A stretch of DNA of 64,000 bases from Topomyia yanbarensis (taxonomy: Eukaryota > Arthropoda > Insecta > Diptera > Culicidae), in contig NW_026683343.1 in the NCBI RefSeq assembly GCF_030247195.1, positions 1-64,000 on the forward strand, given 5' to 3'. Each line of letters begins with the position of its first letter. Within the stretch, counting starts at the first letter, position 1. Positions 3,497-40,228 of this stretch are shown here, in pieces. The position numbers and the translations under genes were made by a program. The notes below the pieces were generated by a model, which did no database searches, had not been told where the DNA came from, and saw only the letters and a list, made by a program, of their open reading frames with translations.

Positions 3497-4000
<504 letters not shown>

Positions 4001-4016
4001 CACTGTACCAAAATCG
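4001..4016 (+). repeat. Left terminal inverted repeat of the 20-kb transposon
   Basis: CACTGTACCAAAATCG, preceded by TA. It is the inverted partner of 24278-24293, with two mismatches. Confidence 0.82.
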
Positions 4017-4496
4017 AAGAACGAATTCAAATGATATTTAATATGACCCGGCCCCTTAACATTAGGCAGTTGTATTTCGGATGACTGCCATTTTGATTAT
4101 TGTCAAGCTTCATTTCGGCTGTGTAAGCAAGATTCAAATGGTACGCATACGGTAATTAAATGTAAGCGTTTTGGAATTCAAAGGAGAAATTGTTTGTGAT
4201 TGAAACATATTCATTCATTATTCAATAGCAGAATTTTGGGATTTGAATAGATAATCAATTATTTAGTATATGTAGTTAATAAGCGACACGAACTACTTTC
4301 ATTGCAAATTTGCGTGTATGTCATCAAAAAGTTGATTGAAAGTTGTTCAAACGACAACCTCATGTAGTACGTTTTAAGTAAGTGAATCTGTTCAATCGAC
4401 GAATATTCAAGGAGCTTGTTCATTATATTTCTGTCGTCCCGAGGTAATAACCAAAAGGGCTAAGTGAAACCAATATTTTGAGATGTTTCAATGTGA

Positions 4497-4502
4497 TTTA
4501 TT
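4497..4502 (-). promoter_or_regulatory. Polyadenylation signal AATAAA of the transposase gene
   Basis: AATAAA on the minus strand begins about 14 nt after the TAA stop at 4516, so the 3' untranslated region would be very short. This suits a compact transposon gene ending close to its terminal repeat. Confidence 0.6.
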
Positions 4503-4515
4503 TAAATACATTAAT

Positions 4516-7069
4516 TTATATAAAATCCTTATACATATATAATTTTCTTCTGAAAAAAATGGAATTTCCAATATGTTCTAGAAGAAATGGAGGACCATCA
4601 AATATGTTTAAATCTAAAATACTCTTAAGGTCAAGCTTTATATCTACAGCGTAAGCTTGATAATGTTCATCATAATGTTTAACTCGCCAATGGTGGGCGG
4701 CTACGAACCATGTATTTCTATGATTAATGCATTCTATTATCTCATATAGTTCTACAGTTGTATCTACAGTAACTGATAAAAAACTACCTGTCTTGTAGAT
4801 TGTATTTTTGTACGTTAGTGAGTCACATGACAACACTAGTTCGTTAGCATCGATTTCGATTGTACTTAGCAAGTTGGTTGTTGCATACGGTTTTGTACAC
4901 CATACGCTTTCTACAAATTTTCCATCGGTCTTGGTTTGTAAAAATGTTTCATTTATAACATCATAGGAGAAGAAAAGACTTGCTTTAATACACATTGTAA
5001 GGCAAACGTTTTTTCGAGAAGATGTTACATTGAAATATTCCTTGAAGTCGCGATGACGGGCTTCGTGTCTTATACAGCACATTTTTTTTATTGGTCCGCT
5101 ACTTCTAATAACGCTAGCGTAATGGTTTAGAAAATGATGTTTAGGTTTCAAACTTTTTTTAAACAAATGTTGGTATAAACGATGATGCTCGCTAACAAGA
5201 CAATTCAATAATTCCAAATCTTTTTCTGAAAAAGCTGGCAGGTTTATTGTATCTATAAGTTTCATCAAAGTGGTAGTATAATGCCACACTGGATCTTGCA
5301 AAGGAACAAAGGGTCCGCATATGAATGAAAAGAAGTTGCTGAAGGCAGCCATTTCACTAGCTGTCATTCTTAGTGTTATCGATTTAATTCGTCTGTTATC
5401 TTCTAAATCTGGCATTCGTGATAAACCTTCCTCAAACTTGAAATTGTTAAGTTCTTTTCTGCGCATATTCATCTGACTGATCGTACAAAACTTCCTCTCG
5501 TGAACGATATAGCTAATTATTTCTGTGAAACCATACATACACACTCCGGAGCTATATAAATCATGCATACTGTCGCAATATAAATTTTCAACAACGCTAT
5601 AAGACGGCAATGTATTGAACAATGAATATCCTGTTAATCCGGAGTCTGATTGCTTTAATTGCACGTCGGTATGATAATTATCTTTATTCCTTAAATATGT
5701 TTCGTACTCTATAAGATCTTTACTGAGTTGGTCTTTGCTTCTTTTGCAAAACCTGCAATAAAAATTAGCAGAAAATGAACCTGAAAATTTTAACATTTGG
5801 TGAATTCCTAGGTTATCTCCTTGTATTAACATTAATGCGAAATGTACTTTAACATTTGTATTCCCTGTGGTAATAAGAATTCCATTCTGTTCTATCGCTT
5901 TCATCTTATCTATTATATATATCATAAACATATCAATATCATGACCCGAAAAATCAATTTTCCTTATCACACCAGCGACAAAAATGTTTGAAAGCTTAGC
6001 TGCGTAGCGTTCCGGTATCGTCGGGAAACTGTAATACATAGCGAACAACGAATGCCTCTTGTTATGAGAACTGAGCGGATCGTTGACCTCGAACTCATCT
6101 CCGTACAAAAATAGTGGTATCAGAAGCCTTCCCGGATCTTTTTCTTGCACTTTTCTATAAACCGAACCGTTAATAAAATTACTATTTTTCACACTTGTCG
6201 TTAGTAGTCGCATATTTCTAATTGTTTTCTCGTAAACCTGACCGTTTTCAAAATACTTTCTGATTTGAAATTCCAAATCCATAAGAACCAAATGTGATTG
6301 GTTTCCCAAGCTTTCTAATTCTAAATCAACAGCTAAATTGATTTTATTATTGTGTATTGTATATACTTTAGGTATTTTAAACAAATCGGCCTGTTCAAGG
6401 TACCTAAACAGTTTATGCTCAGTTCCTATGAAATCAAACAGGGTCGATATCTTGTTCACGAAAGTTTCGTATAGAAATGTTTGGTCTGGGTCTACCGATG
6501 CAAAAAGTGGCGTTGATGTTTTGATTATATTTTGGAGATAACTATTTATAGTTGTAACGGCATTCTGTATATCCACGACATCCTTACGGGTCAAATTACG
6601 TTTTCGATGTAAATCAAGTGAAAAGTTTACCGCCAAACGATCAATGGCAAGTAATGATTCACATATGTAACTCTGATCTCTACCACCAGTTGAAGGCTCG
6701 CAATCAGTAGATTCTTCGATGGAGTTCGCCTAAAACAAATAAAATGCGTGATTAAATAAAGAATTTCATTTTCTCATTTTTTTTCAATACCAATGGCGTC
6801 GTCCTTTTATGCTTTGCGATATTATCTACTGATCGATTATAGTTGATTTCAGTGTTAGAGTGTGTATCTACTGAACGAACGTGAGTTATGATGTGACGAT
6901 GGAACTTATATAAATTGGACATTTTCTGAGTGCAGTCTTGGTATGTACAACGTAGTTTTAGTGGTTTGCTTAAGTTATGTGCTTTAATGTGTGTAATGTA
7001 AACAGTGGTATCTTCAGCATATTCATCACAACCCTCAACGAAACATTTGAACTGGTCACAACGCTGCAT
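4516..7069 (-). CDS. Transposase-like protein (gene B), two C2H2 fingers plus DDE-type core, 830 aa
   Basis: Exons are 7069-6791 and 6729-4516. The 61-bp intron has GT at 6790-6789 and AG at 6731-6730 and splits between codons. Joining them keeps the frame open for 830 codons. Residues 1-70 carry two C2H2 zinc fingers (C-x4-C...H-x3-H and C-x4-C...H-x4-H types), probably for binding the element's ends. The core shows YGDEFEV (D304), QGDNLG (D398) followed by CRFC (418-421), CDSMHDLY (479-483) and RHEARH (E649). These blocks recall animal TNP2-like transposases, and D304, D398 and E649 are my candidate catalytic triad. The gene lies just inside the left end of the 20-kb element. ATG at 7069 overlaps the stop of gene A. 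No frameshift or premature stop was seen, so the copy may be functional. Confidence 0.85.
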
Positions 7070-10000
7070 CGCAGAGTTTCTTCAGATCTTCAATACCTTT
7101 ATATTTTGCGGGTCTTGAAATATTGTAGAGAGTTTCTTCGATTACGTACCACACTAGCTTCGTAATTTTCGAGTATGGAAGCTTGAATACGTTGCACAGT
7201 TTAATTATTACATCAATAGCACGAGCAAGTGAATTGAACTGATAGACGATGTCTTTGAAAATGATGTAAAAATCTCCGCTCAACGCTGTGTAGTCTGTTC
7301 CAATAACAACCACCTTAGGATGTGTTGGAATGTTCTTGGCAGCGTAGGTGTCAAGTAATTCACTAATCGATCTTTTGGCAGATTCTAAATCGTTCGCAAA
7401 AACAAACACATCTTCCTGTGCTGTTAAAATCGATGGTTTGAAAGTTTTAGACACTTTGCAAGGCTGGACGCAGCAGTTCAATAGCATCAACGTACAACAA
7501 ATTAGCGTATCTGAAATAATAAAATAATTAACATTCATTAAAAAAATGCATCTGTTTAACTAGTTAACCATCACCGAGAAAACAATAAAGCTTTTCTGGC
7601 AGATACAATATAATGCTTTCGGTGGCGTCTAAAAATTTGTTTTGGAGAAAATATTTCGTAGTGGTGGTTGATTCAATTCGTTGGTTTTTTTAGAAAACTT
7701 CTATTCAAATGACTCGCGGATCAACTATTCTAAATGGTCTAAACAAAATGAATGATTTACTGTGTAGTATTGGGCGATATTGTATCGATACATCCCAGTT
7801 AAGTTCAGACGAAAAATGAACCGGAATGCTGGCTGGTTCCAGTTCGCATTCCGCCTCCAGTGACACAACCGATTCTATAGTTCGGTTGTGTCACTGGAGC
7901 CGGAATACTAACTAGAACTAGCCATAATTCCAGTTCATTTCCGGGTGAACTTTACTGGGATATAATATCGATAATTCGGAGCCAGAATCAGGGTTGCCAG
8001 GTAATATTTTGTGAAATCTGTGCGCAGCCTATGTAAAAATCTGTGTTATGGAATACGTACAAGTTTGTCTCAAAACAAAAAGTGGTGACCTTTTTTTAAG
8101 TTTTCGCTCGAGGCAAAAATTAAGTGCGCGGTCGAAAATTGAGAGATCTGCTAGTCTGTGTATTATAACAGAAAACTGGTAATCTTTGCATTTAAACAGA
8201 AAACTATGGAAATCTGTGCAGCATATTGAAAATCTGTGAAACACAGATTGATCTGTGCACCTGGTATCCATGGCCAGAATATAGAGACTTTATAAACGGG
8301 CCTTACACGATCAATATTTTTATCAATACTAGGGAGTATTTACGAATTTCGCGCCAACTCGAACAAATTTTGGCAGCACCCTCTCAGATTTTAATGAAAC
8401 CTTCTGTACATGAGAACTTTGTTACAAAAAGCCACTTTGCATACTTTGTTTTTCCAAAAATAATCTAAACTGTCTTTTAAAAAGGGTCAAACTTTTTTTA
8501 CCAATTTTTTTCAAATGGCTTTAGACTAAAAATGACAAATCCTACAAAAAATGTTGTATGAGTGATTTTCACAAAATTAGTTAAATTTTTGAATAAAAAT
8601 ATTGAAACAATTTTTCATCGACTCCTACACTGAAAAAAACAATTTTAAAAATTTAAGGTCAATTTACAAAAAAAAAAACCATCTTTGATTTGGATGAAAT
8701 TTTGTTCCAAGATAGGTAATTACGTTCCCTACCGTCAAAAATTCAAGATGGGCACTTTCAAGGAAAAAGTTATTTGAAAAAACTTTTCCTTGTCCTAATC
8801 ATCAAAGAATCCAATTTTCCAACTGCTAGTTGCCAGTATTCCAAGTATTCCAAATATTACAAGTATGCAAAGTCTTCCAAGTATTCCAAGTATGCTATGC
8901 CTTCCAAGTACAGTCGTGATTCGTTGGTTGGGCCACAGCCTATGTCCAACTAACGAATTTAATTCGCTAGTTGGACCGACTGACAAATGTCAAAAACTCT
9001 CCAAAGAAGGCATTAGTAGTGTAAAAGATTGTTAGATAGATTGTCAAAGTCAATTTGACATGAGATTTTGACGTTCAGATGCTTTTTAGTTGGACAACGG
9101 TCCAACTAGTGGAGGTCCAACTAAAAATTTAAGAGTTGTGTGCAGGACACGACCACGGCGACATTGAAAATGTAGTGTGCAATATAATTCGCGGCGTCGG
9201 CGGTAAAACATGATGAGTTATGTTCTATCAACGACCATGTATTAAACTTGGGTTGAAAGCCCAACTTCTACCAGCAGAAGCCAATCCATTCTTTACATTT
9301 CCTTTCGATCATGGCCATATGAGCCAGCCTAGTCCTAGTTTTACGTGTTATGTTTATAACTGATTCGCTCTAGAATACCTATTTTTCAATTTCATTGCTT
9401 TCGCTTCTCTTAGTCTTAAATTTGCCGAAAACAGCCCACAAAATCAATACAATAATCGAATTATCGCACGTTTACTCTCTTCACGGATATGGTCGGACAA
9501 AGTATTCATTTTGTCGAGTAGTCGTTGACGACCGGGTTGTCAAACATCAATTGAGTCATTTGATGCCAACGAAACGTGCACATATTTTATGTGTTTGGAT
9601 ATAAACCCGTATTAATCTATATGAAATGGAAAAAAACAGCGTTATATTTTACGAATACTTCAAACATTTTACATTGTGTGTCATCATATTAAAAGTATGT
9701 ACAGTTTTTCCACACATATATGAAAGCTAAAAAGAACTACTTAGACAGTGCGAAACCACGCATATAATATGAATTCATTTAAAAAAAAAATTATTGCGTA
9801 TTTAAACAATTGCTTTGAAACCTACTTTTGTTGAGTCGATAAGGTTCAACTTCAAGTTAAATTACAATATATTTCTTTCGTTTTGTTTAAATGACTTAAA
9901 ACTAGCGAATATTTGTCACGCTTCGATTTTCGCTTTACCATTTCGATCAATGCATACCGTTTTAAACAATAGCCAGTACCGTGCCAGGGGCCATGTATAA

Positions 10001-13000
10001 ATGACGTAGTACTTTAGGGGGTAGAGGGGTGTAGCAAATTTAAGACGAGGGGGGATATTGTGACAAAATGTTACGAGGGGGAGGGAGGGGTCGAAATTAG
10101 CCGAAAAAAAGCTACGTCATTTGTGTATGGCCGCAATGGGTAGGGTTACGATATGGGTCGAGCTAACTAGGGCTCAACATTTTCGGTACGCACAAATTTT
10201 AATCTTTTATGCGGAACGAGTACCTAAATAAATCGAAATGAGCAAGAGAGTGTGCCGGTGTAAATACACCGAGTTTCAAGGTGTTCCACGAAGTTCAAAA
10301 CAATCGGCTTTCCAAATTTGTGAACCGTCGATTTGTTTTTTGTCAGTTTTAAAACTCTAGTGCCGCAAAAAGCAACGCGGTACTAGATTCATCGCAACGG
10401 CATACTGACTAGCACTGAGACTGAGTGCCGTAACTCTCCAGTTGTGGTGTGCAAAGTAGTACACAGCGAACTTCATAATTTAAATTTATCTGTCACCTAC
10501 TGCTATCGTCTGCGCTCCGAGAGCAACAACCCCAACAAGCAACAATGCCCAACTTGAATTTTTGACGGTAGGTAGGGAACATAATTACCTATCTTGGAAC
10601 AAAATTTCATCTAAATCAAAGATGGGGTTTTTTGCAAATCGACTTTAAATTTTTTAAATCGTTTTTTTTCAGTATAGGAGTCGATGAAAATTTTTTTCAA
10701 TATTTTTATTCAAAAATTTGACTAATGTTGTGAAAATCACTCCTACAACATTTTTTTGTAGGATTTGTCATTTTTAGACTAGTCATTTGAAAAATATTGG
10801 TAAAAAAAGTTTGAACCTTTTCAAAAGACAGTCTAGATCATTTTTGGAAAAACAAAGTACGCAAAGTGGCTTTTTATGACAAGGTCTTCGTGTACAGAAA
10901 GTCTCATTAAAATCTGAGGGGGTGCTGCCAACTTTGAATACGATTTAGCGCGAAATTCAGTGACAAAAGTAGTGAATGTAATAGAACATTGCATTGTGAC
11001 TCTCAGATCAAAAATTAATACTCTGAAAAAAGAATCAACGAAAGCTCTTAAATTTACTAACGATCTCCTTATATTCACCGTTATTTTTGTACTTAACTCA
11101 TTTACATTAGCATTTTATTATGCAGTTTTGACAATCAGGCTTGAGGATAATTTGTCCTGTGTCTTTTTGCAGTGTAGATATTTTATTTTTGAAAAAGATA
11201 CTTGTACAAAACTATTGCAAAACCTCCGTATCATTTTGATTTAAGATTAAATGAATCTGTAGAGAATTAATATTTTTTCTTTTATTTGCAGACAATAAAG
11301 AGACAATGCAATGATGTTTACTTGCTAGTCGAAATCAAAGTCCTCCAATATATACTGAAACAATATTAACCAGTAAAATGACAACACCGTCGAAAGAAAA
11401 AGTTAACAATAGAGGTTATCTCATTGGCATTTAGGACCATTTGACATATTTGACTAGTTTTGGTAGTTTTGCTGTTTTCAAAAAATGGTATTGAAATATC
11501 AATATTCTAGAGCGTTTTTTCATTACATCATATCTAACAGAAACGTCAAACGGAGAAAATCGCGTGCAAAAATTTCCTTGCGACTTTTAAATTTATTTAG
11601 CAATTTAAGCACACAGAAGGCTATTAATTGTACTACCACCTCTGCAATTACTCATTGCAGGATCGTATAAGCATATTACATGTTTTTCGCGAAGATAATA
11701 GGGAGATAATTGATAACTATTTTTTTATTACATTTGGCCGATCACTATTATGCTCTTTTACATATGTGGTCTTGGCAACACCATTTGTATATGGCACATT
11801 TTACTGTGACGTTTTGAGAGACGGGTTTGTAGTTGTGATATATTTCATGTGCTGTATTGCAACCGAGAGTGTAGATATGAGGTTTGGCATTGGAAAAAGA
11901 TGCTAACTACAGTCGACTTGAAAAACATCACAACGCAAAACATCACATCTACATAATGTTTGCAAAACTTTGGTATAGTATATGTGACATTTTGACTTAA
12001 GATTAAATAAACATGTAAAGAGTTATTATATTTCTCTATTATTTGTGGACGATAAAGAGTCAATGCTTAGCTTTTATTTGGCATAATAAACTCAGTTTGT
12101 TTACATTTGTTAGATATGACGTTTTGAATAAACGGTATAGTATTATGTATCGATTCAATATCGCCCAATACAATTTTACAGTAACAAGAAATTTGTTCCA
12201 GTACCAGGAAAAACAGAAAGTAGCTCGGCTCCAGTGACACAACCGATTCTAACTAGAATCGGTTGTATCCCTCGGAGCCGGTGTACGAATTGAAACCAGT
12301 CAGCATTCCGGCTCATTTTCCGGCTGAACTTAACTGGGCCGGAGTAAAAAGGAGCTGCTGAGCAAGAGGACCAATAAGCGTGTACTGGAACAAACCTAAT
12401 ATTCAAAAGCTTTTTTTCAAAACGTCATTTAACATTGAGTAAATCTTTGTTTACTTTCTCTTTCCATTTTTGCGGCTAGTACTTTCAACTAATTTCACAG
12501 TACAGATCGAAGGACGATGATTCTTAGTAGCATATTATACAGAGTTGTGGGGCAAATGTTAGTGACCGAGTAATTAACAAAAGAAAGTAAACAGTCTCAT
12601 TGTTAGAAATATTTTGAAGAAAGCTGTTGTGTTGTGATTTTAGCTGAGAGGTCAACTGCTGTTAAAAAAATATGAAACAGGCCACACTGACTCTGTTTCG
12701 GGGATAAACAAAACGGCATTAGATTAAAATGTTTACCTTTTGTAACGTTGGCTCGATTCATGTGCTGCAAAATTGCGATGGAAAATTCATCCTTGACTTT
12801 AAGTATAAAATACGGTTTCATTGACGATATCACTCCTTCCCAACCAAGAATTCCTTCGGTGTATCCTAGTATCCGATAATCTTCATCCACCTTTAAGAAA
12901 ACAGGTAAACCTATTAAATAAAATTTATGCAGTATGCATTTGGTATAAGGCCGTGATTCTCAGAACAGTTTCATTTGCTAAGCAATTCCTATGTAGGTGG

Positions 13001-16000
13001 GAATGTTATGCCTATCACGGCAGTATACATTATATTTCACATAAACAATTCAGAAGCTGCTCTAGAACGTTTAAAAATGATATCGACATGACATAAATTG
13101 TTTGGTATAATACTCACGAGTTGGTATCCTAAATCATTGCAATAATGTCCGTATTTGGCAATCACAGCATCGAAACGAAGAGTTTTCAAATCCTTCAAAC
13201 GACATTCGGCACTTATTATCCAGTTGCTAAGTACCAATTCCCATGGCCGTTGGTTCAGTTGCAGCCATCGACAGGCCTGTAATGAACGTTGATCTACTTC
13301 AACGGCTACTTCTTTTTGTAGTTTCTGTTGGTGACGTAACTCTCTTTGTTCTCGATTTCTTGCAGCGTATTTCAATTTTCTATATGTCTGACATAACAAA
13401 CCACCTGGATTTCTTCTCTCTGGAGGAGCAGATGGGATATAATAAATAAGCTGAAAATGTACCAAACCGATTAGTATATAGGTAACGAGAAATGCAGTAA
13501 GAAGTAATGTGACACGCTGAGTTTCGAACATATAAAGCTGTACGCACACGAGGCGACAGGACACACGCCACAAAAAATATTCACTATGGATTTTGTTGTA
13601 CCTATACCAACGCGGCAACAGCAACATCGTTGGAATAGGTAGAACAAAATCCATAGTGAATATTTTTTTGTGGCGTGTGTCCTGCCGCCTCGTGAGCGAA
13701 CAGCTTAATTACTTTCATGGATATCAAGATCTAACTTCATATATTGAAACTCAAGTCTAGTATACTTCGGGGGTGTAAATGATTAATTACCTTATCCTGC
13801 ACTTCCCGTGGAAATAAATGCATGATGCATTCTGTGTAATTTTGTAACTCGACTTTCGTTAGAGTACTTTTATTCAGTCCATCACAATCGTTTAACCAGC
13901 TAATGTGGTGATGAGCAATGATTTCGCTGAGTTCCTTTTTGCTATCTTTCGATAACGTGCCACGATTGGCATTCTGTATGATTGCTGAACCAACTTTCGT
14001 GGCGCTTAAAAGATTTTTCAACTTGTTCGGTGTAAAAAATCGGCCTAAAGTGCCACCACGAACCGCTCTACCGGTGCTCCCTGTTGCCTTTGCTGAATGT
14101 CGCGAGAAATCAATGGCCTGCGAATGTAAAATTAACACTTACTAAGTAAAATGCGTTTTACACGATGTCGGCCTTGTTCCAGTGAAACTCGCGCACACAA
14201 TACCAACGGCATGGAAAGGGGCCCATATTATTGGCACGAATCAAAACTCGTCGAAATGTCAATTGGCGATAGGTTCATCCGGAGTGTTCATTTGTGTTTA
14301 CATTTTGCTAGCGTTGCCAATTTCATTTTGATTTCACTACCCAATGTGGCTACGCCACATCGCTTTTGCGAGTGCTGTCCGACTTCGCTACCGCTCAGTC
14401 GGACTTAAACTAGGGATAGCCCCTATGTTTGAGTAAGCCGGGCAAACGAGTGGATCACAGGTTCGCTAGTACATCTTAAACAGAGGTTCCTAAAGGGTAT
14501 CGGATGGTTACCGGAACCCAGTAAAGTTCAACCTAAAATGTGCCGGAATTCTGGTTGGTTCTAATTCGTATTCCGGCTTCGGCTGAAGCCGCAATACGAA
14601 TTAGAACCAGCCAGCATTCCGGCTGAGCTTAACTGGGAAGTTTCCTAATATTTAATCTAGGAAATAAAAATTTTCTGGCAACGCTCCAGCACCCCGTTGA
14701 ACTTTTCACCCCTTGGGTATCAGTTTGACGCTACGGAATGAACTTTGTTTACTTTCGACAAGTTTTGATTCGTGCCAACAGTGTTTGCCCCATGGAAAGT
14801 GTGGACCAAGGTGTTTAGAATTCTAAGGTGATTCGTTTTTGGCAGTAACTAGGTGAGAAGTGAGGTAAGCGTGCAACTGCGAGGGTGAAAAATGACAGCA
14901 AAAAAACTCTGTGTGCAAACTGAAATTCAAGCAATCCGAGACGAATGTTTCATCACTAGTAACTAGTAAACAATGTTGTTTGCGGTCGCTTTTAAAACCA
15001 GCATGACTGATCGGTGTTTTAGATAATCGTATCACCTGAGAATAAAAGCTCCTTGGTGTGGACGTTCGAAACATATGAATGCGCGTACGAGAAATGCATT
15101 CAACTTATCCTGACGGAACGTGCCGTTGGTGTTCTATTCCATTGAAGAAGGTTAATTCACACGATAAATCTTACTTAGAACAGGACTCGCAGATTTTTGA
15201 ATATACTTGTGTGCTCTTATCATTGTCTAAGCGATGATATAGAGCATATTTTTAAAAACTTTATTGATTTTTTCAACACAGCAAATTTGTGAGATTAATA
15301 TGATTTTTGCTTGTGGCGACACTAATTCTAACCCCACCCGCTGAGCTGACAGTAGTTGGGGCTAAAATCCGATGCAGTATCAGAGCATAGGTAAAACAGC
15401 ACACATTTTCAATTTCTTCCAAATAAATATAATTTCGTTTTTCGTCGAAAGCACCGGACGGGGTTTGAACTGCTTTATTACTTTCGAGAAAGGCAGTCTT
15501 CCAATGTATTTCAATGAAAAGCGACATAATGTTTATGAGGGAGATATTATTTTCGTAACATTCTTCTAACATGTAAAATATACCGTAACGAAAGAGATTA
15601 CCTGTCCAGACGACTCAGCGGTATCTGATGATGATGATGATGATTCACCGAAATCGGAAGATGCATTATTCTCTGTGTTAATCAAATCCATAGATGTTGA
15701 AGTTCGTTGTGGAGTGCGTTGTTTTGGTAAATCTGTATTGCTCAGATCTCGAAAAACGGTTCTCCGAGCATTTCCCAAGACATTAGCTGATTCTTCCAAA
15801 GAGTCTTCCTGGCAGTGCAATGACTGTTCATTCTGAGGAAGAAAAGTATAACAGTTATTATTTATGATATATTTGCAGTCGCGCACACCAGTGATCGGTA
15901 CTTGGGGTATGATACTAGATCTAGTATCAACAAATTAATATTATTTTTTATTACCAAATCCGACTCAGGGTCAACAAAATTTGTACTTGCATCCTTCGGA

Positions 16001-16673
16001 AGATCTGTTGGTTGGTCTTTAGTCGAACCAGCTCGACCGGTGCTATGCAAATCCTGCGAAAAAAATGACGTATAATTACGTTTAAGGTTCAAGGATGCTT
16101 GAAACTAAACTTACGTCTGGAGATTGTTGGTCATCATACACCAAAAAGCTGCATTTGTCCATTTGCGGAATGAATGGCGAAGACAATCCCTATGAAAATT
16201 TAAGAAAAGAAATCTCGTTAAACGTAACGTTTTCTCAAGCATTTTCTGCACAATCATTCACTCAAATGTTAAAGCAATCGGAAGTAACACACATGGAGGA
16301 GGAAAAGCTATTACCGGAGAACTAAATGAATAATCCAAAAAATCCTCAAAGGACCAATTTTGCGTCTATAAATAATGTTATATTAAACTTACCGAATTAT
16401 TTTTCCAATCAGCAATACGACTGCAAATGAATTCACCATCAACTCCTTGTAGGAGGTCGGACCATTCTTGTGCCGTCATGCAGAAAAACTTTTCCGCTGG
16501 TATATTGTTATCTGAATAAATGGAATTCGTTTCAATAAAAACATGCTCATGTTCATATGCTTTATTTATATTTACTTACCACTTATTGCAAATACAATTC
16601 GCACTGGTAGCTCTAGTTGGTTCGCAATTTTTAATAAATGGTTGAAATTTTGGTCGATAATGCGCAATTCCAT
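7056..16673 (-). CDS. Transposon companion protein (gene A), nine exons, 628 aa, function unknown
   Basis: Exons, 5' to 3': 16673-16580, 16511-16393, 16189-16115, 16053-15955, 15832-15602, 14117-13791, 13450-13118, 12890-12737, 7510-7056. Every intron has GT-AG ends, and phases match at each junction, giving 628 codons from ATG to TGA. The N-terminus (about residues 1-70, with MTAQEWSDLL) precedes a Ser/Glu-rich acidic spacer (about 120-205), a basic segment with GRAVRGG, then helical regions with YYIPSAPPERRNPGG and WLQLNQRPWE. The last exon holds a conserved-looking block (FKPSI..AQEDVFVF). I recognise this arrangement from uncharacterised insect proteins, but know no function. Like TNPA of plant CACTA elements it may be the second transposition protein; that is inference. 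Intron 8 is 5.2 kb and intron 5 carries a MITE. The ATG at 16673 is the first after an in-frame stop. Confidence 0.85.
7793..7960. repeat. Foldback of the 'cccagttaag' family
   Basis: 'tcccagttaagttca' at the left end is mirrored by 'tgaactttactggga' at the right. The middle contains 'tgacacaaccgattct' and its complement. It lies in intron 8 of gene A. Relatives occur at 2163-2352, 12224-12339, 14518-14638, 19300-19471 and 21032-21130. Confidence 0.85.
8345..8753 (+). repeat. Left arm of a 0.4-kb inverted repeat pair
   Basis: From 'gaatttcgcgcca' to 'ccgtcaaaaattcaagatgggc' this stretch matches 10547-10962 in inverted orientation along most of its length, with scattered differences. Arms are about 1.8 kb apart inside intron 8 of gene A. 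No coding potential is seen. It is either two copies of one repeat family or a long inverted-repeat element. Confidence 0.8.
8829..8912 (+). repeat. 'ttccaagta' short tandem repeat
   Basis: About eight degenerate copies of a roughly 10-bp motif (ttccaagta/tacaagtat) occur in tandem. Non-coding. Confidence 0.8.
9989..10132. mobile_element. Short MITE with 'ggccatgtataaatgacgta' ends
   Basis: The left end 'ggccatgtataaatgacgta' is mirrored by 'tacgtcatttgtgtatggcc' at the right. The interior is G-rich ('gagggggagggagggg'). No target duplication was established. A similarly organised but distinct MITE with 'cataaattacgtaacgc' ends is at 54262-54521. Confidence 0.75.
10547..10962 (-). repeat. 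Right arm of the 0.4-kb inverted repeat pair
   Basis: Inverted counterpart of 8345-8753; see that entry. Both arms contain the same 'gacaaatcctacaaaaaa' stretch and the same oligo-A block, so divergence is modest. Confidence 0.8.
12224..12339. repeat. Left-truncated foldback of the 'cccagttaag' family
   Basis: 'ccgattctaactagaatcgg' forms the central palindrome and 'cggctgaacttaactggg' the right end. The left end is missing or replaced. Confidence 0.75.
13535..13707. repeat. 173-bp foldback with long arms
   Basis: The left arm runs 'aagctgtacgcacacgagg...ttcactatggattttgttgtacc' and the right arm is its near-perfect complement ending 'gcgaacagctt'. It lies in intron 6 of gene A. A partial relative is at 19660-19745 ('acacacgccacataaaatat'). 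Arms can form a stable hairpin. Confidence 0.9.
14219..14790. mobile_element. MITE with TIRs and 8-9 bp target duplication (copy 2 of 2)
   Basis: CATGGAAAG flanks both ends (14210-14218, 14791-14799). The ends are inverted repeats sharing 'ttggcacgaatcaaaact' and 'gtcgaaa'. The interior carries a 'cccagttaag' foldback at 14518-14638 and matches 2026-2612 in inverted orientation. It sits in intron 5 of gene A, so it does not disturb the coding frame. Confidence 0.88.
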
Positions 16674-18990
16674 CTTGATTGAATGCGAGGATATACAAAA
16701 TGGCGTAATGTATCAAATGTCTGTCATTTGAGTCAGCCCTCAGACTGAAAACAGATGTAATGCACGGAAAACCCCGCAATCACAAAAAATAAATATTGCA
16801 TTTGTTGATTTTTGTTTTTACTGTTTCAACTAAAATTTGCTAGTACAACTAACTGTATTGTTGATTTTCGCATCACCAGTTTGTTGAAAAAAATTGTTGT
16901 TTTTGAAGGCTGTCAGTTAGCTTAAAAGAAACAGCAAAAAGGAAAACAAAAATTTGTAACGCCAATTTAACCATTGCTTTGGTTGAAAAGGATGCGTTGA
17001 TAAGTTTGCTTCTAAAATTTTGAAGTTAACATAAAAGTTTGTTAGTTTCGAAGAAAGATCTACAAATCAGTTGCAAAAACTTGAAGTGAGTAGCCAAACA
17101 TTACTATTAAAACTCATTGATGTATATTTGCGTTTAATTCATTTTTATCAAGCAGTGAAAGCAAAATATTTTTTTCGATAACTTTAGCAGATACTCAAAC
17201 ACGTATTAAGTCAAAGAGTGTTATTTGTAAATGTAAATGTGTTTGTTAAACAACCGTATCCTAAATCAATCGATCGCAGTTGCTGGGAAATAAACCCTGT
17301 AAAACAGAAGAAGTTTCAGAAAATCGTTGTTTGGCAGTAAATGATAGATCGCTTTCATTTCCATTCACAATAATCGGTTTTAGTACGCAGTAGGCAGTTG
17401 GATTGCAATCCGTTTGATTATCCTAAGAAAGAATGTTTCGTGTTCTACAAAACAGGTAACAATGTTGATTTTTAAACAAAAAAATATCCACGTATACCCT
17501 ATCTTTACTTGTATATCATCATTATAGAAATTCGCGAGGATGAGAAAAACCACGGAGTTCATATAAAATACAATCCGAGATAAAACAAGAAAACGCCAAT
17601 GTTTAAAAAATTCCTTATATATGATAGATAGCACCAGATACTTGCTATTATCGTGTCACCTGGGCTGTACTCATGCTATAGCGGATAGTCGATATTAGTA
17701 GTAACCTTTTGAGTTTCATCAATATTACTTCTAGTTAGTTTACAACAATGGGTCCAAAGATTACAAGGTAATGTACTACCCATGATCGCATAGTTGTCCC
17801 GTTTTCTATGGGATTTCCTCTTTATGGGACTGATATGCGATCATATGCAGTGTACCTAATATAAAAAGCATATATTACGAACATTAGAATGACAGAACAT
17901 CCCCTGGAGGCTAAACAGATTTGCTGTGTCCATACGCGCCTAAAACTATCAGCTACTTGTTTCTTAATTGCGTCAATCTAATAGACGACTGCGACTAACT
18001 AGTTTAAACTAATTTTGGCTAAGCAGCCGTGAAAACGGATTTCGTATCAAATTTATAGCACCAATGCTACGAATACGATGTCGATGGGATGGTTCGACAC
18101 ACATTGCAAAAGCAAAGTATTTCAAAAAATGAGTAACCCTTCATCAATGCACGCAGAATCTACGCTTTCAAAAACAAAATACTTTCCTTGATGAACATGT
18201 GACGGCGGCGCATAGTATCTATTTCTATTTGAATGCATTTATTCCAACGCGATTTTCTTGGAATTGTGAAGCTAAATACCTTTATCTATCTGCTGATAAT
18301 TTTCACCTTTCGGACATATGGTACAAAGGGTGTTTGATGAAAGTTGCAAAGAAATAAATAAAACTCAAAACGCTATGTACCTTTTTCACATATCCGTCTT
18401 CAATCAAATCTCAGTTTTCAGTTTTTTTAATGCCTCGCATACCAATGGTAAAATTTCTACGAAATATCTAAGCAAATAAAATGTAGAGAATGAAAACAAT
18501 TTTCGCAAGTGCACCAACTTTTTAACAGCTAAATATTCCGTGATATTAAATTTATTTAAACGTTAAACTTCGGATTTGCAATAAAATTTATTATTTTTAA
18601 ATTAAAGATACTTACAGGGGGAGGTTTGTAAAAGAACAAATTAGAGCTGGCTCTGGAACAAGAGATAAATCAAGGAAGACTACAAACATATTTTCAGCAT
18701 ATACTATGCTAAAAAGCAGCGATGCCAGATGTGAAGACATGTCTTCATTTTGGAGACATTTGAAAGGTCGTGAACAATTTTTCATTTAGAAGGCATTTTT
18801 TTCGGATGGATGACCGATTTCTGGCAGAATTCTGGATCAAAATCAAAAACCGATTCAGAATTCTAGTAGGAAGAAGACAAATAAAGACATTTTTCATGAA
18901 ATGTGCAGACATTTAAAAAATATTTCTGGCATCCCTGCTAAGAAGACAAGATGTACGGTCGAGAATTGTCAATAATGCAAAAGGCCTCGA
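16674..18990. other. Upstream flank of gene A, no gene seen
   Basis: The promoter of gene A should lie here but no clear TATA or initiator stands out. 16780-17100 is rich in 'gtttgttgaaa' and 'ttgttgatttt' motifs like those at 23600-24000 and 43690-43920, suggesting a repeat family. Short ORFs here have no supporting features. Confidence 0.5.
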
Positions 18991-19046
18991 AAGGGCCTGC
19001 TTAGTAGAGCGCTCTAGTTAGAGTGTGGCCAAGAGTAGAGCACTCT

Positions 19047-19300
19047 AGTTAGAGTGTGGCCAAGAGGCCATGACGTATCCAAACGAACATGAAATTTGAC
19101 GTATCTCTATTGTGTATTCGTCAAATTCCATGTTCGTTTGGATACGTCATGGCCTCTTGGCCACACTCTAACTAGAGCGCTCTAGCCAAGAGGCCATGAC
19201 GTATCCAAACGAACATGGAATTTGACGTATACACAATAGAGATACGTCAAATTTCATGTTCGTTTGGATACGTCATGGCCTCTTGGCCACACTCTAACTC
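19047..19300. repeat. Two tandem long palindromes
   Basis: Palindrome 1 (about 19047-19175) and palindrome 2 (about 19186-19300) both have arms containing 'gccaagaggccatgacgtat' and 'ccaaacgaacatg' with complements. The loops are inverted relative to each other. Shorter 'agagtgtggccaagag' units at 19017-19060 precede them. The whole could fold into a cruciform cluster. Confidence 0.92.
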
Positions 19301-19471
19301 CCAGTTAAACTCATTCTGGAACCGGTTCGGATTTCTGAATGGAGTCATTATGGATTCCAAATCAAATGCAACAACCGATTCCGACTCAGAATCGGTTGTT
19401 GCATTTGATTTGGAATCCATAATGACTCCATTCAGGATTCCAAATCAAATTCCGAATGGTTTGACCGGGCT
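19300..19471. repeat. Foldback adjoining the palindrome cluster
   Basis: It starts 'cccagttaaactcattctgg' and is centred on 'accgattccgactcagaatc'. The arms (from 'gaatggagtcattatggatt' to its complement) match almost perfectly. The outer end resembles the 'cccagttaag' foldbacks. It is followed by 'ctagagtgctctac', shared with the neighbouring palindromes, so it appears nested in them. Confidence 0.88.
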
Positions 19472-19489
19472 AGAGTGCTCTACTGCTTA

Positions 19490-21031
19490 GCAGTAGTAAA
19501 CCCATGCAACATATTTGCGCAGCTTAATCATCAAGATGGAGAGGTGGCCACATAATTCTTTGCGTGTTTACGCTACGTATTTCTTTAAGCTGTTCATAAG
19601 AGGCCCTTATACGTTCAATATTTTTTGTCAATACTGTCTAGCATAATGGCCGTTATAGAGTAAGCAACAAGACACACGCCACATAAAATATGCACTATGG
19701 ATTTTGTTCTACTTATTCAGTAGATACAGAACACTAGAATAGGATTGTCGCAGGTGTTCCCATTGCTTTCGCCTCGGAACATGTTTGTTTTGCTTCCGGT
19801 ATATATCTGTCAAAGTATCGAAAGTCTCTCTAGTACAAGTCTTTGGTCCGCACTTTTGGTACACGCAGAAAAATATGGCCTGCTTGTAACCACAAACCGT
19901 TTAGTTGAACTTCAAATTAGTAAAATGCAGAGTTTGACCATTTTTTATTTCAGTCTCGTTTATTCTACTGTGATTTTTATTAATTCAAACCGAAATCGTC
20001 CAATGCATAAAATTTGCAGCAGAATAAACGAGAGGCAAACAGAAAAATGATGTGATATTTGCCATGAAACAAATTTCTATGTGGCATACTATTATAATTT
20101 CATTAATTTTCACATGATATCTATGCGTGACAGGTAATTTTTATGTGCTACTTCAAATTACAAAAAAATATGTGTGAAGTCAATATATTCAATATAACGA
20201 ATTTTCTCGGTGTAAATTTTCAACTGTTATTGTTATAAAAAGAAAGAGTTTGTATATACCGCACAAGGAAATGAAATTTTATCAAAATTTAGTACAAGTT
20301 TAGACAATTTGTGCATTCTAATTAGTGAAAATACATTAGCCAAGAATGGCCATTGTTTTGCTGGCTAAAAGAAACAAAAATGATTAGTCGCTATGAAACG
20401 ACGATAGAGGATTTTTTTGCTATTTTTTTATTTGACCCTTTCGACAGGTATATCCCGGAATCGAAACAATGATGTTCCTACCACTGATGCCAGCGACAAT
20501 CCTAATCTAGTGTTCTGTATCTACTACTTATTCGCACGCTACGAATATAGAACGAAACCCACAGTGATTTTTGTTTGTGGCGCGGGTTCTGTCGCCTATA
20601 ATCTGAATGCCAAAACGAAAAACAAATTATGTTGTTCGGTTCACACAACTTATTTGAATTTATTCTGAAGTACCACGTTTTTCATCGATTTTAACCACTT
20701 GCAGCTAATGGTTGGTTAATCTAAACTAAAGTTTACCGTCAACTTTTTTCTCCAACACTACATAAGATTGTTGAGCCCGAAAATACTTATGTGAAACCTA
20801 TGTGTGTAATTTTAACCCTTAAATGAAATAATTCAATTTTTCTTTCGTATTACAGTATGCATTTCAGGGTTAAAAAGATACATCATACCAAATGGCTTTA
20901 AAACTACATTAATACTAAACATTTCGTATTTTTTAGTATTCTTTACCTAATTAACATAGACTATATTGGCATAATTATTCTATCAAAACACATACCTTTT
21001 GGATAAGTACTCTTGATATAAAATAACATAA
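19490..21031. other. Non-coding interior of the 20-kb transposon
   Basis: Only a fragment related to the 13535-13707 foldback is seen (about 19660-19745). Short ORFs at 19745-20050 and 20417-20668 lack motifs, splice context or a match to the two element genes. Confidence 0.5.
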
Positions 21032-21130
21032 CCCAGGAAAGTTCAGTTGGAAATGAGTCGGAATTCTGACTAGCTACAAACTAGAACCAGCCAGCATTCC
21101 GGCTCATTTTCGAGTTGAACTTAACTGGGA
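21032..21130. repeat. Short 'cccagttaag' foldback
   Basis: The left end 'cccaggaaagttcagttgg' mirrors the right end 'gagttgaacttaactggga', with 'gctacaaactag' at the centre. It is a compact member of the dispersed family. Confidence 0.8.
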
Positions 21131-21282
21131 AATAAACATACATAAAATAAACAAACAAAGCGACATCTGTGAGTGGAGAGCATTGGAGCAATGCGCTGCT
21201 GCATGGGTTTTTTAAAAGCCTTTTCATGAAATGTCAAAATCATAATTGGTTCGTTCCAGACGTTCCAGCAGAGATCCCAGAT

Positions 21283-21500
21283 TTGCAGACAAGTCTGCAA
21301 ATTCGCAGACTTTTAATTTAAGCTGTAGATTTTTTCGATGATGCAGATATTTGCAGATTTTTTAGTTTTGTTGCAGATATTTACAGATTTTTGAATTTAA
21401 AGGCTTTTGGTTACACTAGCTTTCCTGACATTTTTTGTTCTTCCCAGACTTTTAAAATTATTTTTGCAGACATTAGAAAAAAATACCTGGCATCTCTGCG
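21283..21500 (+). repeat. Degenerate 'gcagat(a/t)tt' repeats
   Basis: Recurrent 'tgcagatatttgcagatttt'-like units, similar in style to the 'aatctgtgaaa' arrays. Non-coding. Confidence 0.5.
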
Positions 21501-24277
21501 TTCCAGAGTCCAGTACATGCTCTTGCTCATGATATTCATATTGGCGATTCCCATTTTTTGCTGTATTCAAGTTTTTTTTATTCTAATTTTTAAAGTTCTG
21601 GTTAGTAAATTCATTGTTTTATAATAATACTATATCTAAAGATATATAACTTTCATTTTCAGAAATATCAATTGTTGAAATATTGAAGGTATCACCCGAT
21701 TGCAAATGCCGAATAATGTTCCTTCGGAAGCAGCATCACCCCACAGCTAAATAAATAATAAAGCTAAAATATAGTCGAGAAATTAGCGAAGAAGATATCT
21801 GGCCTCGTCGCGGTAGCGGAGAAAACTGTACCTTTGGAAATCTGATGATAGATGGGACCATTTGGGATTTCGAACCATTTAAGCTACTTCTATGGAAGCT
21901 TTCTGCTTCTAGTTCATAGGTGCAGACCGGATTCTATAGAATCCAGTGACAACCATCCAATTCATCTGCTTCTTAGTGCTATCGAGTGCAACCATCTACA
22001 GAAGCAAGCTACCTTAAGTGACATAGCAAATGTTTCGCCGTGAGCAAATCTTGGAGAGTGCAGAAGATTCTACTGCCAATTGTTACAGAATTTCTACACC
22101 TTTGTTTAGAGCAAATGACGTCCATTGTTCAACGCTCAACGGAGTCAACGCTTGCTTTCAGAGGGTATAACAGTCCGTTCGCTTAATTTGGCACAACCAT
22201 CAGTAGCGGATCGTCGCAGGTACCGAACAAAGGTATTAGGTCATTGGTATCCTTGACTTTATCAGGTTAAACATGGCAATTGAGAGAGCCGGTACAGACA
22301 GACTATACCATTACGAGGAAATTCCTTCATTAAGCATCACAATACTCTTTTTGCCCCAAAACACATACTCCCCCTCGTACACAGTCCAAAATACTCATTT
22401 GCCTCACTTTCTCTTCCATTAATAACTACGCGCCGCTTTTTCGTTTGCTCCTTATCTCTTAGCATATGAGGCTAGAATCTTTCGATATTTATCGAAACAA
22501 TGTTGAAAAGTTCCATGGTGACGCCATAATAATGTAAAGAGAAAGTGAGCACAACTCTCATTTGGGTTATGCCCTTTTCACATGGTTATCTAGAAATATC
22601 TGGTTGTATTATTGCACCTACGGATTGAAGTTAACATTAGTTTTTTAGTAGGAAAATAGTTTTTTACGAGCCCACCGCTCGAGGGACAGATAACTTGTGA
22701 TACAATTTTTAAAATCAACAAAATTAAACGAATCTCTCCATTAAAATTTAAATTTCAGTGCATTTTACCTTGCGTGTAAGACGCCAGAGCTCTGCAAGAA
22801 ACTAGCTCTACATCCAATTAAACATCAAACGCAAAAAAAAATCAAGTGTTTTTTTCGCAAAAAATTGAACAAAAAACAGTCCCAAAGACCGTCAAACGAT
22901 CCGACGCATGCAGAAAAGTAATTAAACAAAAAATCGGTTTGTGTTCTTACGATTGATAAAATATTTAATTACAATCAGTGGCGCCAGCAACGCATATGTG
23001 ACACATGATCAAAGAAAATATATTTCAATTGATCGTGGAACTTGGCGAGAAATTCTGTTCGAGCGTTATGTTCGTTTGTCTGTGGTACCAGTAGCGATAT
23101 ACACTGAGCAACCTATGATTTTTTCAGTTTCACATTTTGTACCCAAATAATTTTTCTGAGATTGAAAACTATTTTTCAGTGATGGAAACGCGATATATAT
23201 TTTGGCAAATACTCTTTCACGGATGCAAATTGCTAAATTCCTTCTAAAGCCTTCCCTATATGTCGTTTTGCAATTATGATTCTTTATACAATTTGCAGCT
23301 ATACTGGTTCCGTCTTTCAGAAGCCCAATGTCAACGTCGGTGTTACAGACAGCACAGGGGTGTTTAAATTTTCCCAGCGAATCCATATTGAATACAAATT
23401 CAGAATAAACCATGCTGGTGGAATAAAGCTACACTGGACAACTTCGAGTGAAACTGTTTTGCCGAAAACGAAATTATACTTCTCGATGTTCGGTTGATTG
23501 AAACTGGATAATCTTATAATTTATGCTATTAGATATTAAAAAATGCTTATTTTTAAGAGATATTCGTCTGCATTAAATTGATTTTGCCTCCAGATTACAA
23601 ATATTATTAATTCCTAATCACAAATCCAAACCGGAAACAAAAAATTAATTGATTAGAACAACCAAATCTCTTTATTTCCAACAAATACGTTAGCTGTTAC
23701 AATTGGTTGGGAATTATTAAATTAACAAAACCATTGATTGAAACAACTAACTTAGTCTTAATTTTCAACTCTTAATAATCTTAAAATCAACAACAACATT
23801 AGTAGATACAACTCATTTGATGAGCTAATCCGGATGATGTGTGTCTTTGCTAACTGACAGCATCGCATTTTCAACTAGATTTTATAGTTGTTTCAACCAC
23901 TATTGTGTTGACACAAAAACAAAAATGACAGTTTAGAAAAATCAACAATCGTTTAGCTGTACCAAATTTTAACCAATCGATTTCAGAAATTTGACTAATA
24001 ATTTAGTTGCTATGCGATCGAGAGCGTTTCCGTGTGGGAATGATGATCTGTTGACATTTGGAATGATCATCATAAACGTCATAGTTTTCTATTGCTGAAT
24101 GCAAGCAATACATTTGAAGCTGTATTCATCCTTCAAAAATCGGATGAGTGTTCACTCCGATATAAACATCAAATCATTCGATTTGGCATTAACTTGTTAT
24201 TCGGATGATTACTCTTCGAAAATGTAATCGTTAGGTTTTCTTGTGGTTCATATGACAAATCATACGCTAATTTGCAA
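21501..24277. other. Right subterminal region of the 20-kb transposon
   Basis: No gene is supported. The last 500 bp contain repeated CGGATGA (23831, 24141, 24202) and 'gatcatcat' motifs that may be transposase-binding subterminal repeats. That role is inferred by analogy with CACTA elements. Confidence 0.45.
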
Positions 24278-24293
24278 CGATTTTTGTTCAGTG
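24278..24293 (-). repeat. Right terminal inverted repeat of the 20-kb transposon
   Basis: Minus-strand reading is CACTGAACAAAAATCG, followed outside by TA (24294-24295). It pairs with 4001-4016. Confidence 0.82.
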
Positions 24294-24771
24294 TACTGGG
24301 CCGACCGGCCCGTGTCATTCACTCGCTGTGGATGCCGGTCGCGTGTGTGACGGTGTGCTGAACGGGGGATATTTTTGAAGCCGTAAAAAAGTGAAAAGTT
24401 TTTAAAAAATATTGAATTTTTTTTTTTACGTTGGATTTGGTGGTATTTGAGATACCAATACAGTGTGTATCAATATTAGTACGGTACAGTGCGTGTCAAA
24501 AGTGTTGGAACGGCACAAAAATCAAAATCGTCAAAGTGCGTTTTTCTTGCTCGTATTACTATCTAGTGGCTGCGTAGAAGCTAGTAAGCGAGCAGATTCA
24601 TCACTGCGCACCTACAGTGTGTCCCAAAATTGTGGGAACACTCGTAAACCGTCGACGTTGAGGGGGCAATTAAGGTAGGATCTTTCTTTTTTTGCCTTTT
24701 TGCCTATTTGGGGGTGGTACCGGGTGACCGTGCCAAAGAGTATTTTCCAACGTCTGGTGGTGTAATCCAAG

Positions 24772-26013
24772 ATGGCGGCCGCTAGTAGCGGTGATCCGGG
24801 TGGGTCGAGAACGAGAAGACTACCAGAGTACATGGACCCAACGAACAAATTTGGTGAACTGACATTCCTGCAGCTGACAGGTAAAGACGGTGTACCATTG
24901 CCAAGAAACCCGTTTATCATTGGGAAATCGGTTGAGGTTGCCGCTGGAGGTCCAATTGAAGGTGCGAATACCGAAGCTCAGGGGACACGGTATACCCTTC
25001 GAGTTCGGAACCCAGCCCAAGTTGCCAAACTTATGAAAATGACCAAGCTCATGGACGGTACTGATGTTGTGGTTGAATCCCATCCGAATCTGAACGTAAG
25101 CAGATGCGTAATTTCCTGCTACGATCTGATTCACTTGGAAGAAAAGGAAGTCTTACAAGAAATTCTAAGCCAGGGAGTGATTCGTGTGCAGCGAATTACA
25201 CGTAAAGAAGCCGAAAACAGAGTGAATACGCCAGCACTCATCTTGACTTTCTGCAAGACCACATACCCGGAATACATGAAGATCGGTTTGCTTCGCGTCC
25301 CAACTCGCCCGTACTTCCCAAACCCGATGCTCTGCTATGGTTGCTTTAAATACGGCCATACGCGTGTTCGCTGTCCTGGCCCGCAACGTTGTCCTAACTG
25401 CTCTGGAGAACATCAAAGCGAAGAAAAATGTCGAGCACCCCAGTTTTGTCTAAATTGTAAAGGAGATCACCAACCAACAAGCCGCCAATGTCCAAATTAC
25501 AAAAAGGAAGTAGAGGTTATAAAAATAAAAATCCGCGACAATTTGACATTCCCGGAAGCGCGCAAACGAGCTGAACAGCAAAATCTAGGAAGTTACGCCC
25601 AGGCTGCAGCGCAATCAAATGAGATCCTGAATAAATTGAAAGAACTGGAGCAGACAATGAAGAAGAAGGATGAGCAGATCGTTAAGCTTCTGGCAGAGAA
25701 CAAACGCAAGGACGAGAAACAACATTCCGCCAGCCAAGAAAAACCACAGCACAGTAAAGAACAAAAACCAACGAATCAAACTGTCGGGCCAATAACACGA
25801 TCCAGGAACAACTCACCAGCGATAAATACGGACTCAAAACGAGGAAGACCACAGAAACAACAAACCCCGTTCAGCAAACCAACGGCAACCTCACCGGATA
25901 ACCTAAGCCCACCACCAAAAAAAACCGCTGCCACTACCACCAACGAAACTATGGAATATTCAGACGATGAAATTGAGATTACCGAGACGCCTCCTAGCCA
26001 GCCTCTTCGATAA
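24772..26013 (+). CDS. ORF1 Gag-like nucleic-acid-binding protein, copy 1 (413 aa)
   Basis: The ATG lies in 'aagatggcggcc', a good start context conserved in copy 2. Residues about 65-185 form a Gag-like region of the kind that precedes zinc knuckles. Three CCHC knuckles follow at 188-201 (C-x2-C-x4-H-x4-C), 207-220 and 226-240. Residues about 285-315 are a Lys/Glu-rich probable coiled coil, and the C-terminal 90 residues are Pro/Ser/Thr-rich and low complexity. In non-LTR elements this protein coats the RNA and acts as a chaperone in the particle. Copy 1 lacks 12 residues after KRKDEK that copy 2 keeps (EQMIAYIHQM region). It overlaps ORF2 by 47 nt. Confidence 0.93.
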   Translation: MAAASSGDPGGSRTRRLPEYMDPTNKFGELTFLQLTGKDGVPLPRNPFIIGKSVEVAAGGPIEGANTEAQGTRYTLRVRNPAQVAKLMKMTKLMDGTDVVVESHPNLNVSRCVISCYDLIHLEEKEVLQEILSQGVIRVQRITRKEAENRVNTPALILTFCKTTYPEYMKIGLLRVPTRPYFPNPMLCYGCFKYGHTRVRCPGPQRCPNCSGEHQSEEKCRAPQFCLNCKGDHQPTSRQCPNYKKEVEVIKIKIRDNLTFPEARKRAEQQNLGSYAQAAAQSNEILNKLKELEQTMKKKDEQIVKLLAENKRKDEKQHSASQEKPQHSKEQKPTNQTVGPITRSRNNSPAINTDSKRGRPQKQQTPFSKPTATSPDNLSPPPKKTAATTTNETMEYSDDEIEITETPPSQPLR

Positions 26014-30628: not shown

Positions 30629-30760
30629 CTTTATACTTTGAATTGTAAATGATAACTGACAACTGCATTGAAAATTTTTTTTCAGGTTAAATATTTTTCT
30701 TTCGACACGAATGCACCACTTCTTGGTGTAAAGTGTCGTTAATAAACAACAACAACAACA

Positions 30761-30808
<48 letters not shown>
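30761..30808 (+). repeat. (TTA)n microsatellite between copies 1 and 2
   Basis: A 48-bp ATT/TTA tract joins the CAA-repeat tail of copy 1 to the 5' end of copy 2. It is the remnant of the shared target tract or a tail-derived repeat. Confidence 0.95.
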
Positions 30809-30810
<2 letters not shown>

Positions 30811-31523
30811 TCTGAGTTGGAAACACCGTTCCGTACGGTATAAACAGCGCGCATTCGGGAATTAAACACAGTGTTTTTTCGGTGTTCTTCGCGATATTCG
30901 CGGTTTATTTTTCGACAAAAAGGTGAACGAAGTGCTTCTCTAGTGGTGAACAGTGAAAGTTTGGTGAAAATCGGTTCAGAAACGGCTGAAAAAAGTGAAT
31001 TTTAGTTTTGCCCACGCGGTGCAATAGGTAAACAGCCATCGCTGTGCCTACCCGCGTGGTTGCCGGGCCGATCTTGCATTCACTCGCTGGTGGAGTGTGA
31101 CGGTGTGCTGAACGGACGATATTTTTGAGTCGCAAAAAACGTAAAAAGTTTTTGAAAAATTAATGAATTTTTTTTTTAACGTTGGATTTGGTGGTATTTG
31201 AGATACCAGTACAGTGTGTACCGATATTTGTACGGTACAGTGCTGGCCAAAAGTGTATGAACGGCAAAAATAAAAATTGGAAAAGTGCGTTTTTCTTGCT
31301 TGTTTTGCTATTTAGAGGCTGTGTAGAAGCAAGCAAGCGAACAGATTCACCACTGCGCATCTACAGTGTGTCCCAAAACTGTGGGAACGCTTCGAAAAAG
31401 TCGACGTTGAAGGGGCAAATAGGGTAAGATCTTTCCTTTTCTTCACCTTTTTTGTCCATTTGGGGTTGGTATCGGGTGACCGTGCCACATAGCAGTTTCC
31501 AACGTCTGGTGGCGTAATCCAAG

Positions 31524-37461: not shown

Positions 37462-37574
37462 AAAATCTGTATTGTAAATTAATGTTTGTGAAAGCGAAAT
37501 TGAAACTAACTTTCCGACACGAATGCACCCTTCTGGTGTAAAGTGTCATTAATAAACAACAACAACAACAACAA

Positions 37575-40228
<2,654 letters not shown>

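Follow-up and report, generated by a model that had tools for sequence, protein, structure and literature searches.

The window analysed here comprises bases 1-64000 of the 78-kb contig C122 of Topomyia yanbarensis, and the lineage of its proteins points to a host in the Culicidae, Sabethini. At 4001-24293 it contains a stretch that the original prediction described as a single, complete 20.3-kb CACTA-like transposon with two genes, splitting an I-like retrotransposon at a TA. Together with searches of the 1.17-Gb genome assembly, our results lead to the conclusion that the stretch is very probably a 13.0-kb CACTA/EnSpm (CMC) transposon of autonomous type, which lies in the 5' untranslated region (UTR) of the I-like element, encodes a RAG1-like DDE transposase and a helper protein, and was later invaded by a 7.27-kb transposon of another family. 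The evidence consists of the ends, the target duplications, the other copies, the open frames and the conserved catalytic residues. The CACTA-like character, the two genes and the insertion at a TA in the retrotransposon all hold, while the 20.3 kb proved to be the sum of two elements.

The borders are defined by the following features.

4001..24293, genes on the minus strand: composite of the CACTA element and the nested insert, recognised by its ends, its TA and the C87 and C2 copies
4001..4016, plus strand: left terminal inverted repeat, CACTGTACCAAAATCG
24278..24293, minus strand: right terminal inverted repeat, CACTGAACAAAAATCG
3999..4000, unstranded: left TA target duplication (TA also lies outside the C2 copy)
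24294..24295, unstranded: right TA target duplication

With a slash marking the border, the sequence reads CCTA/CACTGTACCAAAATCG at 4001 and CGATTTTTGTTCAGTG/TACT at 24293, where the other strand is CACTGAACAAAAATCG. The predicted inverted CACTG... repeats with flanking TA are thus present at both positions, and 14 of their 16 bases are identical. The window contains no second CACTG/CAGTG pair that is flanked by TA and differs at 2 or fewer of 16 bases, and none at all was seen in 200 first-order Markov resamplings. A search for other copies carrying both ends had been set beforehand as the test that could overturn the claim; an independent copy in C2 shares both. Similarity to that copy begins at the left TA, and its flank diverges right after CAGTG/TA.

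The interrupted retrotransposon and the copy used for comparison are as follows.

3750..4000, plus strand: I-like copy 1, first part of the 5' UTR
24296..30760, plus strand: I-like copy 1, remaining 5' UTR, open reading frames ORF1 (24772-26013) and ORF2 (25967-30628), and 3' end
30809..37575, plus strand: I-like copy 2, uninterrupted

The flanks are indeed pieces of one I-like 5' UTR. When the two are joined and the extra TA is removed, identity is 81.7% to copy 2 and 79.8-81.6% to 10 further copies, which were fetched from the 40 places listed in a genome search with the copy 2 UTR (best 40 of 357 candidates, with copy 2 of the window and its counterpart in C87 among them). In all 40 places listed the match runs unbroken through the UTR, and the UTR lengths of the two window copies agree (727 vs 715 nt). 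The joined-flank alignment cannot place the border to the base, because the I-like subfamilies diverge over about 20 nt next to the junction, and copy 2 was rejected as a base-exact ruler for this reason. Of the two independent lines that had been said to give the exact borders, this one therefore drops out; the boundary is fixed to the base by the terminal repeats, the duplicated TA and the independent copy in C2.

When the left 800 bp were compared with the genome, 41 matches were listed among the best 40 of 96 candidates scored: three full ends (C122, C87 and C2), one internal piece and 37 relatives of 69-72% identity beginning at base 1. The C87 insertion (14723-28069) lacks window 16763-24034 and otherwise differs from the 13,019-bp window element by 3 mismatches in 13,015 and one 331-bp insertion in C87. 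The C2 copy (C2:102343505-102356554) is 99.3% identical over 13,005. The C87 blocks beside the element are 99.9% identical to the window, and C87 is either an allele or a recent duplicate of the C122 locus.

The inverted ends have the CACTA/EnSpm (CMC) form 5'-CACT..AGTG-3' (5'-CA..TG-3'), and the target duplication falls within the 2-3 bp of that group, being TA at both the window and the C2 insertions and present in three of four related single copies. The 16 loci fetched from the 69-72% relatives (L007-L022) include at least three sequence types, and four of the 16 are joints of a tandem array described below. The remaining 12 have TA (nine), CA (two) or TG (one) immediately before the left end. 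Single copies of the array type with both ends read (n=4; 3,167-3,191 bp) gave the duplications TA, TA and CA.

The transposase is encoded by two exons.

6788..7069, minus strand: exon 1, region of C2H2-type zinc fingers, to which P0001 residues 1-94 align
4516..6729, minus strand: exon 2, with the RAG1-like catalytic core and, at the C terminus, the BAH-like domain; open to the stop

Over 86% of its length, its reading frame is 100% identical to a protein of Topomyia yanbarensis. A search found 85 proteins, the window's own included; most rows are unnamed, and those named come from mosquitoes, a sand fly, the horn fly, beetles, an aphid and thrips. In an alignment of 41 members (40 of the 85 together with the window protein), D180, D274, C294, H501, H505 and E525 are invariant in all 41 and C297 is conserved in 40. 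These residues match D-D-C(2)C-H(3-4)H-E, which the available text of PMC12730594 gives as the CMC transposase signature. Additionally, the family profile matches C2H2 chains, and 12-16 of the 41 give weak hits to C2H2 models (E values up to 10). The predicted model of the transposase has a RAG1-like catalytic fold, with RAG1, BbRAGL and HzTransib as its best matches.

At about residues 568-698, 13 of the 50 structure matches shown are found, and BAH is named in the titles of three of these entries (7lmm, 7lmk and 6vil). We take the matched stretches of DNMT1 and MET1 to hold BAH1, and the C-terminal domain of the predicted model has a BAH fold. The sequence of this tail is aligned in transposase relatives. 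We term the domain BAH-like only because there is no recognisable BAH sequence profile: no BAH chain was matched, and no BAH family was among 25 of 70 families shown. The match could instead reflect a generic beta-barrel with no link to BAH function. We regard this as a genuine possibility, though one we do not favor, since all 13 entries are DNMT1, MET1 or BAHCC1 and the mean predicted local distance difference test (pLDDT) score is at least 85 in 11 of the 13 blocks of ten residues that span 571-700. If the BAH-like domain does read a histone mark, a RAG1-like enzyme would have solved chromatin targeting within one protein.

The best predicted folds could also suggest that the element belongs to the Transib/RAG-like transposons proper and not to CACTA. 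This is very unlikely, as the ends begin with CACTG and the duplications are 2 bp, not the 5 bp of Transib. Furthermore, weak matches to tnp2, DUF4218 and Plavaka are seen in some relatives, and neither a Transib nor a RAG1 model was among the 16 families of one scan or the 25 of 70 shown in the other. Because of its 2-bp duplication we do not file the element under Transib/RAG, although it may work like RAG.

The second gene of the CACTA element encodes the putative helper, P0086, a protein of 452 residues whose exons run from 15691 down to 7056.

15602..15691, minus strand: first exon of the public model P0086
13791..14117, minus strand: helper exon
13112..13462, minus strand: helper exon, both ends approximate
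12737..12890, minus strand: helper exon
7056..7520, minus strand: last exon, with stop, start approximate
16402..16512, minus strand: probable additional upstream exon (46% to P0091 residues 36-76, E 2e-5)

The helper query is 98% identical over 79% to a Topomyia yanbarensis protein. A profile search with P0086 (7,997 candidates scored) returned 8 proteins including itself, all named as mosquito. P0086 has no Pfam match, and in a Pfam scan of 4 of the 8 proteins three had no match at E values up to 1 and the fourth a chance-level one (E 0.2). The fold model of the helper is poor. At another Topomyia yanbarensis locus, LOC131683496, isoform X1 is a transposase relative and isoform X3 a helper relative, which suggests that transposase and helper come from one transcription unit.

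The nested element is delimited as follows.

16763..24034, unstranded: nested transposon with ends CACGGAAA...TTTCCGTG, absent from C87 and C2, with 3 further copies
16761..16762, unstranded: left TG target duplication of the nested element
24035..24036, unstranded: right TG target duplication of the nested element

At the junction C87 reads GATGTAATG/GGAATGATG, where the window reads GATGTAATG/CACGGAAA...TTTCCGTG/TGGGAATGATG; the difference is a 7,272-bp insert plus a duplicated TG. With the nested insert and one TG left out, the CACTA element is 13,019 bp long. Comparison of the right 800 bp of the span with the genome gave 48 matches among the best 40 of 357 candidates scored. Among those listed, the true CACTA right end (259 bp) occurs in C122, in C87 and twice in C2, and the end of the nested element at three loci at 100%. 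A further 34 matches are relatives of that nested end at 84-90%, each starting at most 13 bases from the same border, and the remaining 7 are short pieces. The three 100% loci, with their ends read, are elements of 7,274, 7,275 and 7,274 bp with duplications TG, CG and CA and differing flanks. Judged by its sequence, the nested part is a mobile family of its own, other than CACTA: it is bounded by separate inverted ends and a duplicated TG, and each of its three other copies lies in different flanks with a 2-bp duplication. It is likewise younger than its host element. It has no match to the fetched CACTA-system proteins, other protein families not having been searched there.

That the whole of 4001-24293 is one 20.3-kb element from which C87 lost 7.3 kb is scarcely credible: the near-identity of C87 and C122 makes a deletion in one of them conceivable, but the independent C2 insertion is without the same 7,272 bp at the identical base, and the separate genomic copies of the nested part, with their own ends and duplications and with flanks that, as far as read, do not place them in CACTA sequence, lead us to reject a single element. 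The annotation is thereby corrected from a 20-kb giant to a 13-kb element with an apparently younger element inside. The stretch also no longer looks complete as one element, as had been proposed, and the nested insert may part the helper gene from its promoter because it lies upstream of the recognised helper exons. Within the nested element, a fold-back stretch at 19003-19469 consists of inverted repeats with 115-nt arms 99% complementary and 84-nt arms 82% complementary.

Several observations weigh against a CACTA/EnSpm element with a RAG1-like transposase. The Pfam tnp2 (Transposase_21) model scored 17.9 bits (E 0.0018), under its 28.6-bit cut-off, and was reached by only 2 of 41 members at E values up to 10. 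The match to RAG1 is moderate, with a template-modelling score (TM-score) of 0.43 by query and 0.48 by target in the best row. One of the four single copies of the related 3.18-kb family is without a matching duplication. Finally, only two independent insertions of the exact family are seen, because the C87 and C122 copies could be allelic, and no third full copy is among the left-end matches listed. We conclude that the CACTA element is a new member of the animal CACTA/EnSpm group that has probably been moving recently. Both families seem to have moved recently in Topomyia yanbarensis, to judge from their near-identical copies, and the element may be active.

We propose that the CACTA element inserted by cut-and-paste at a TA in the I-like 5' UTR, duplicating the TA, and that the 7.27-kb transposon would later have landed at a TG between the CACTA right end and the helper gene. 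The DDE transposase, with its predicted RAG1-like core, would nick the DNA, form a hairpin and direct 3'OH attack with a 2-bp stagger. Its N-terminal C2H2-type fingers probably bind the element ends, its C-terminal BAH-like domain may contact chromatin, and the second protein, so far mosquito-only, could act as the helper.

Similarities to other systems are seen at several levels. RAG1, ProtoRAG and Transib resemble the CACTA element in predicted fold, catalytic layout and ends beginning CAC; they differ in target duplication length, and no RAG2 relative was noticed here. In vertebrate RAG the chromatin reader is the PHD finger of RAG2, a partner protein, whereas here the BAH-like domain is within the transposase itself. 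Plant CACTA/En-Spm elements share the CACT ends and two proteins, possibly from one transcription unit. Their target duplication is 3 bp, in contrast to 2 bp here, and helper P0086 is without a Pfam counterpart. According to the available text of PMC1636069, plant CACTA encodes tnpA and tnpD. The same text describes the animal CACTA group TRC (SmTRC1 and Aedes aegypti TRC, the latter reported in 2006 at 9.2 kb), which is similar in its CACTA-type transposase, 2-bp target duplications and mosquito host. TRC ends start with CCC, while those here start with CACTG; a second protein and a predicted BAH-like tail are further features described for the window element. Next to the 9.2-kb relative, a 13.0-kb element weakens the claim of very large size for an animal DNA transposon. 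The fungal families covered by the available text of PMC12730594 are alike in CMC-type motif and TA duplication but differ in their fungal hosts and in carrying a TET/JBP gene.

A related element forms a tandem array at C3:143869644-143885543 (L012-L016, L070), where five units of 3,180 bp, with 0-2 base differences between them, are arranged head to tail. The unit matches the window element only at its two ends, over the first 351 bp (70.7%) and the last 256 bp (71.7%). At all four inner joints, TTGTTCAGTG/CACTGTACC, the right end is fused to the left end with zero bases between, and the outer edges (ACCTA/CACTG and CAGTG/TAGG) show a single TA duplication around the entire array. Exact matches to the 19-base joint number four in the genome, all in this array, and with 1-2 mismatches there are 12 further matches vs 6 for the reversed control; the precise joints are therefore a single-locus observation. 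The fused ends have the same structure as the RAG signal joint, with its heptamer CACAGTG (PMC7481187), and the end-joined episomes reported for hAT elements, among which precise joints are very few (PMC2803484), as far as the available text of both sources goes. On the simplest reading, a circle whose ends had fused entered a resident copy by recombination. An alternative in which each unit inserted into the TG or CA at the end of another would produce an identical inner joint, but it was not supported, there being no extra TG/CA at the outer edges; an assembly error is possible. More broadly, it is conceivable, though doubtful, that insect CACTA transposases are RAG1-type recombinases with their own BAH-like chromatin reader that steers or licenses insertion, and that excised ends are ligated precisely into circles returning as zero-spacer tandem arrays. 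Such an array is a natural record that can be used to test for precisely joined ends after excision of these elements.

Other rearrangements were seen in the CACTA copies. The 331-bp insertion in C87 (about 15537-15866), absent from the window copy, has CACTC...CAGTG ends with TA on both sides. It breaks the C87 transposase at window position ~4811, within the C-terminal domain, and probably accounts for the shortened public transposase model. At C2:102343505-102358750 (L027, L028) the full copy is followed by TA, a second piece (window 14851 to the right end), TA and flank. The right end of the full copy is joined to an internal TA of the partial copy, perhaps through one-ended insertion into a sister copy. 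An older insertion is common to C87 and C2.

8370..10931, unstranded: older inverted-repeat insertion in the long intron of the helper gene (inverted repeats I1, I3, I6, I21 and I24)

Both I-like copies of the window lie head to tail in an (ATT)n microsatellite (3491-3749, 30761-30808 and 37576-37738), and five same-orientation pairs about 6.8-7.9 kb apart are among the 40 I-like places listed. Because of these two observations, targeting of I-like elements to ATT tails is likely. Within I-like copy 2, a segment of about 604 bp appears to be tandemly duplicated in C87 (at 38839) but not in the window (34464-35067).
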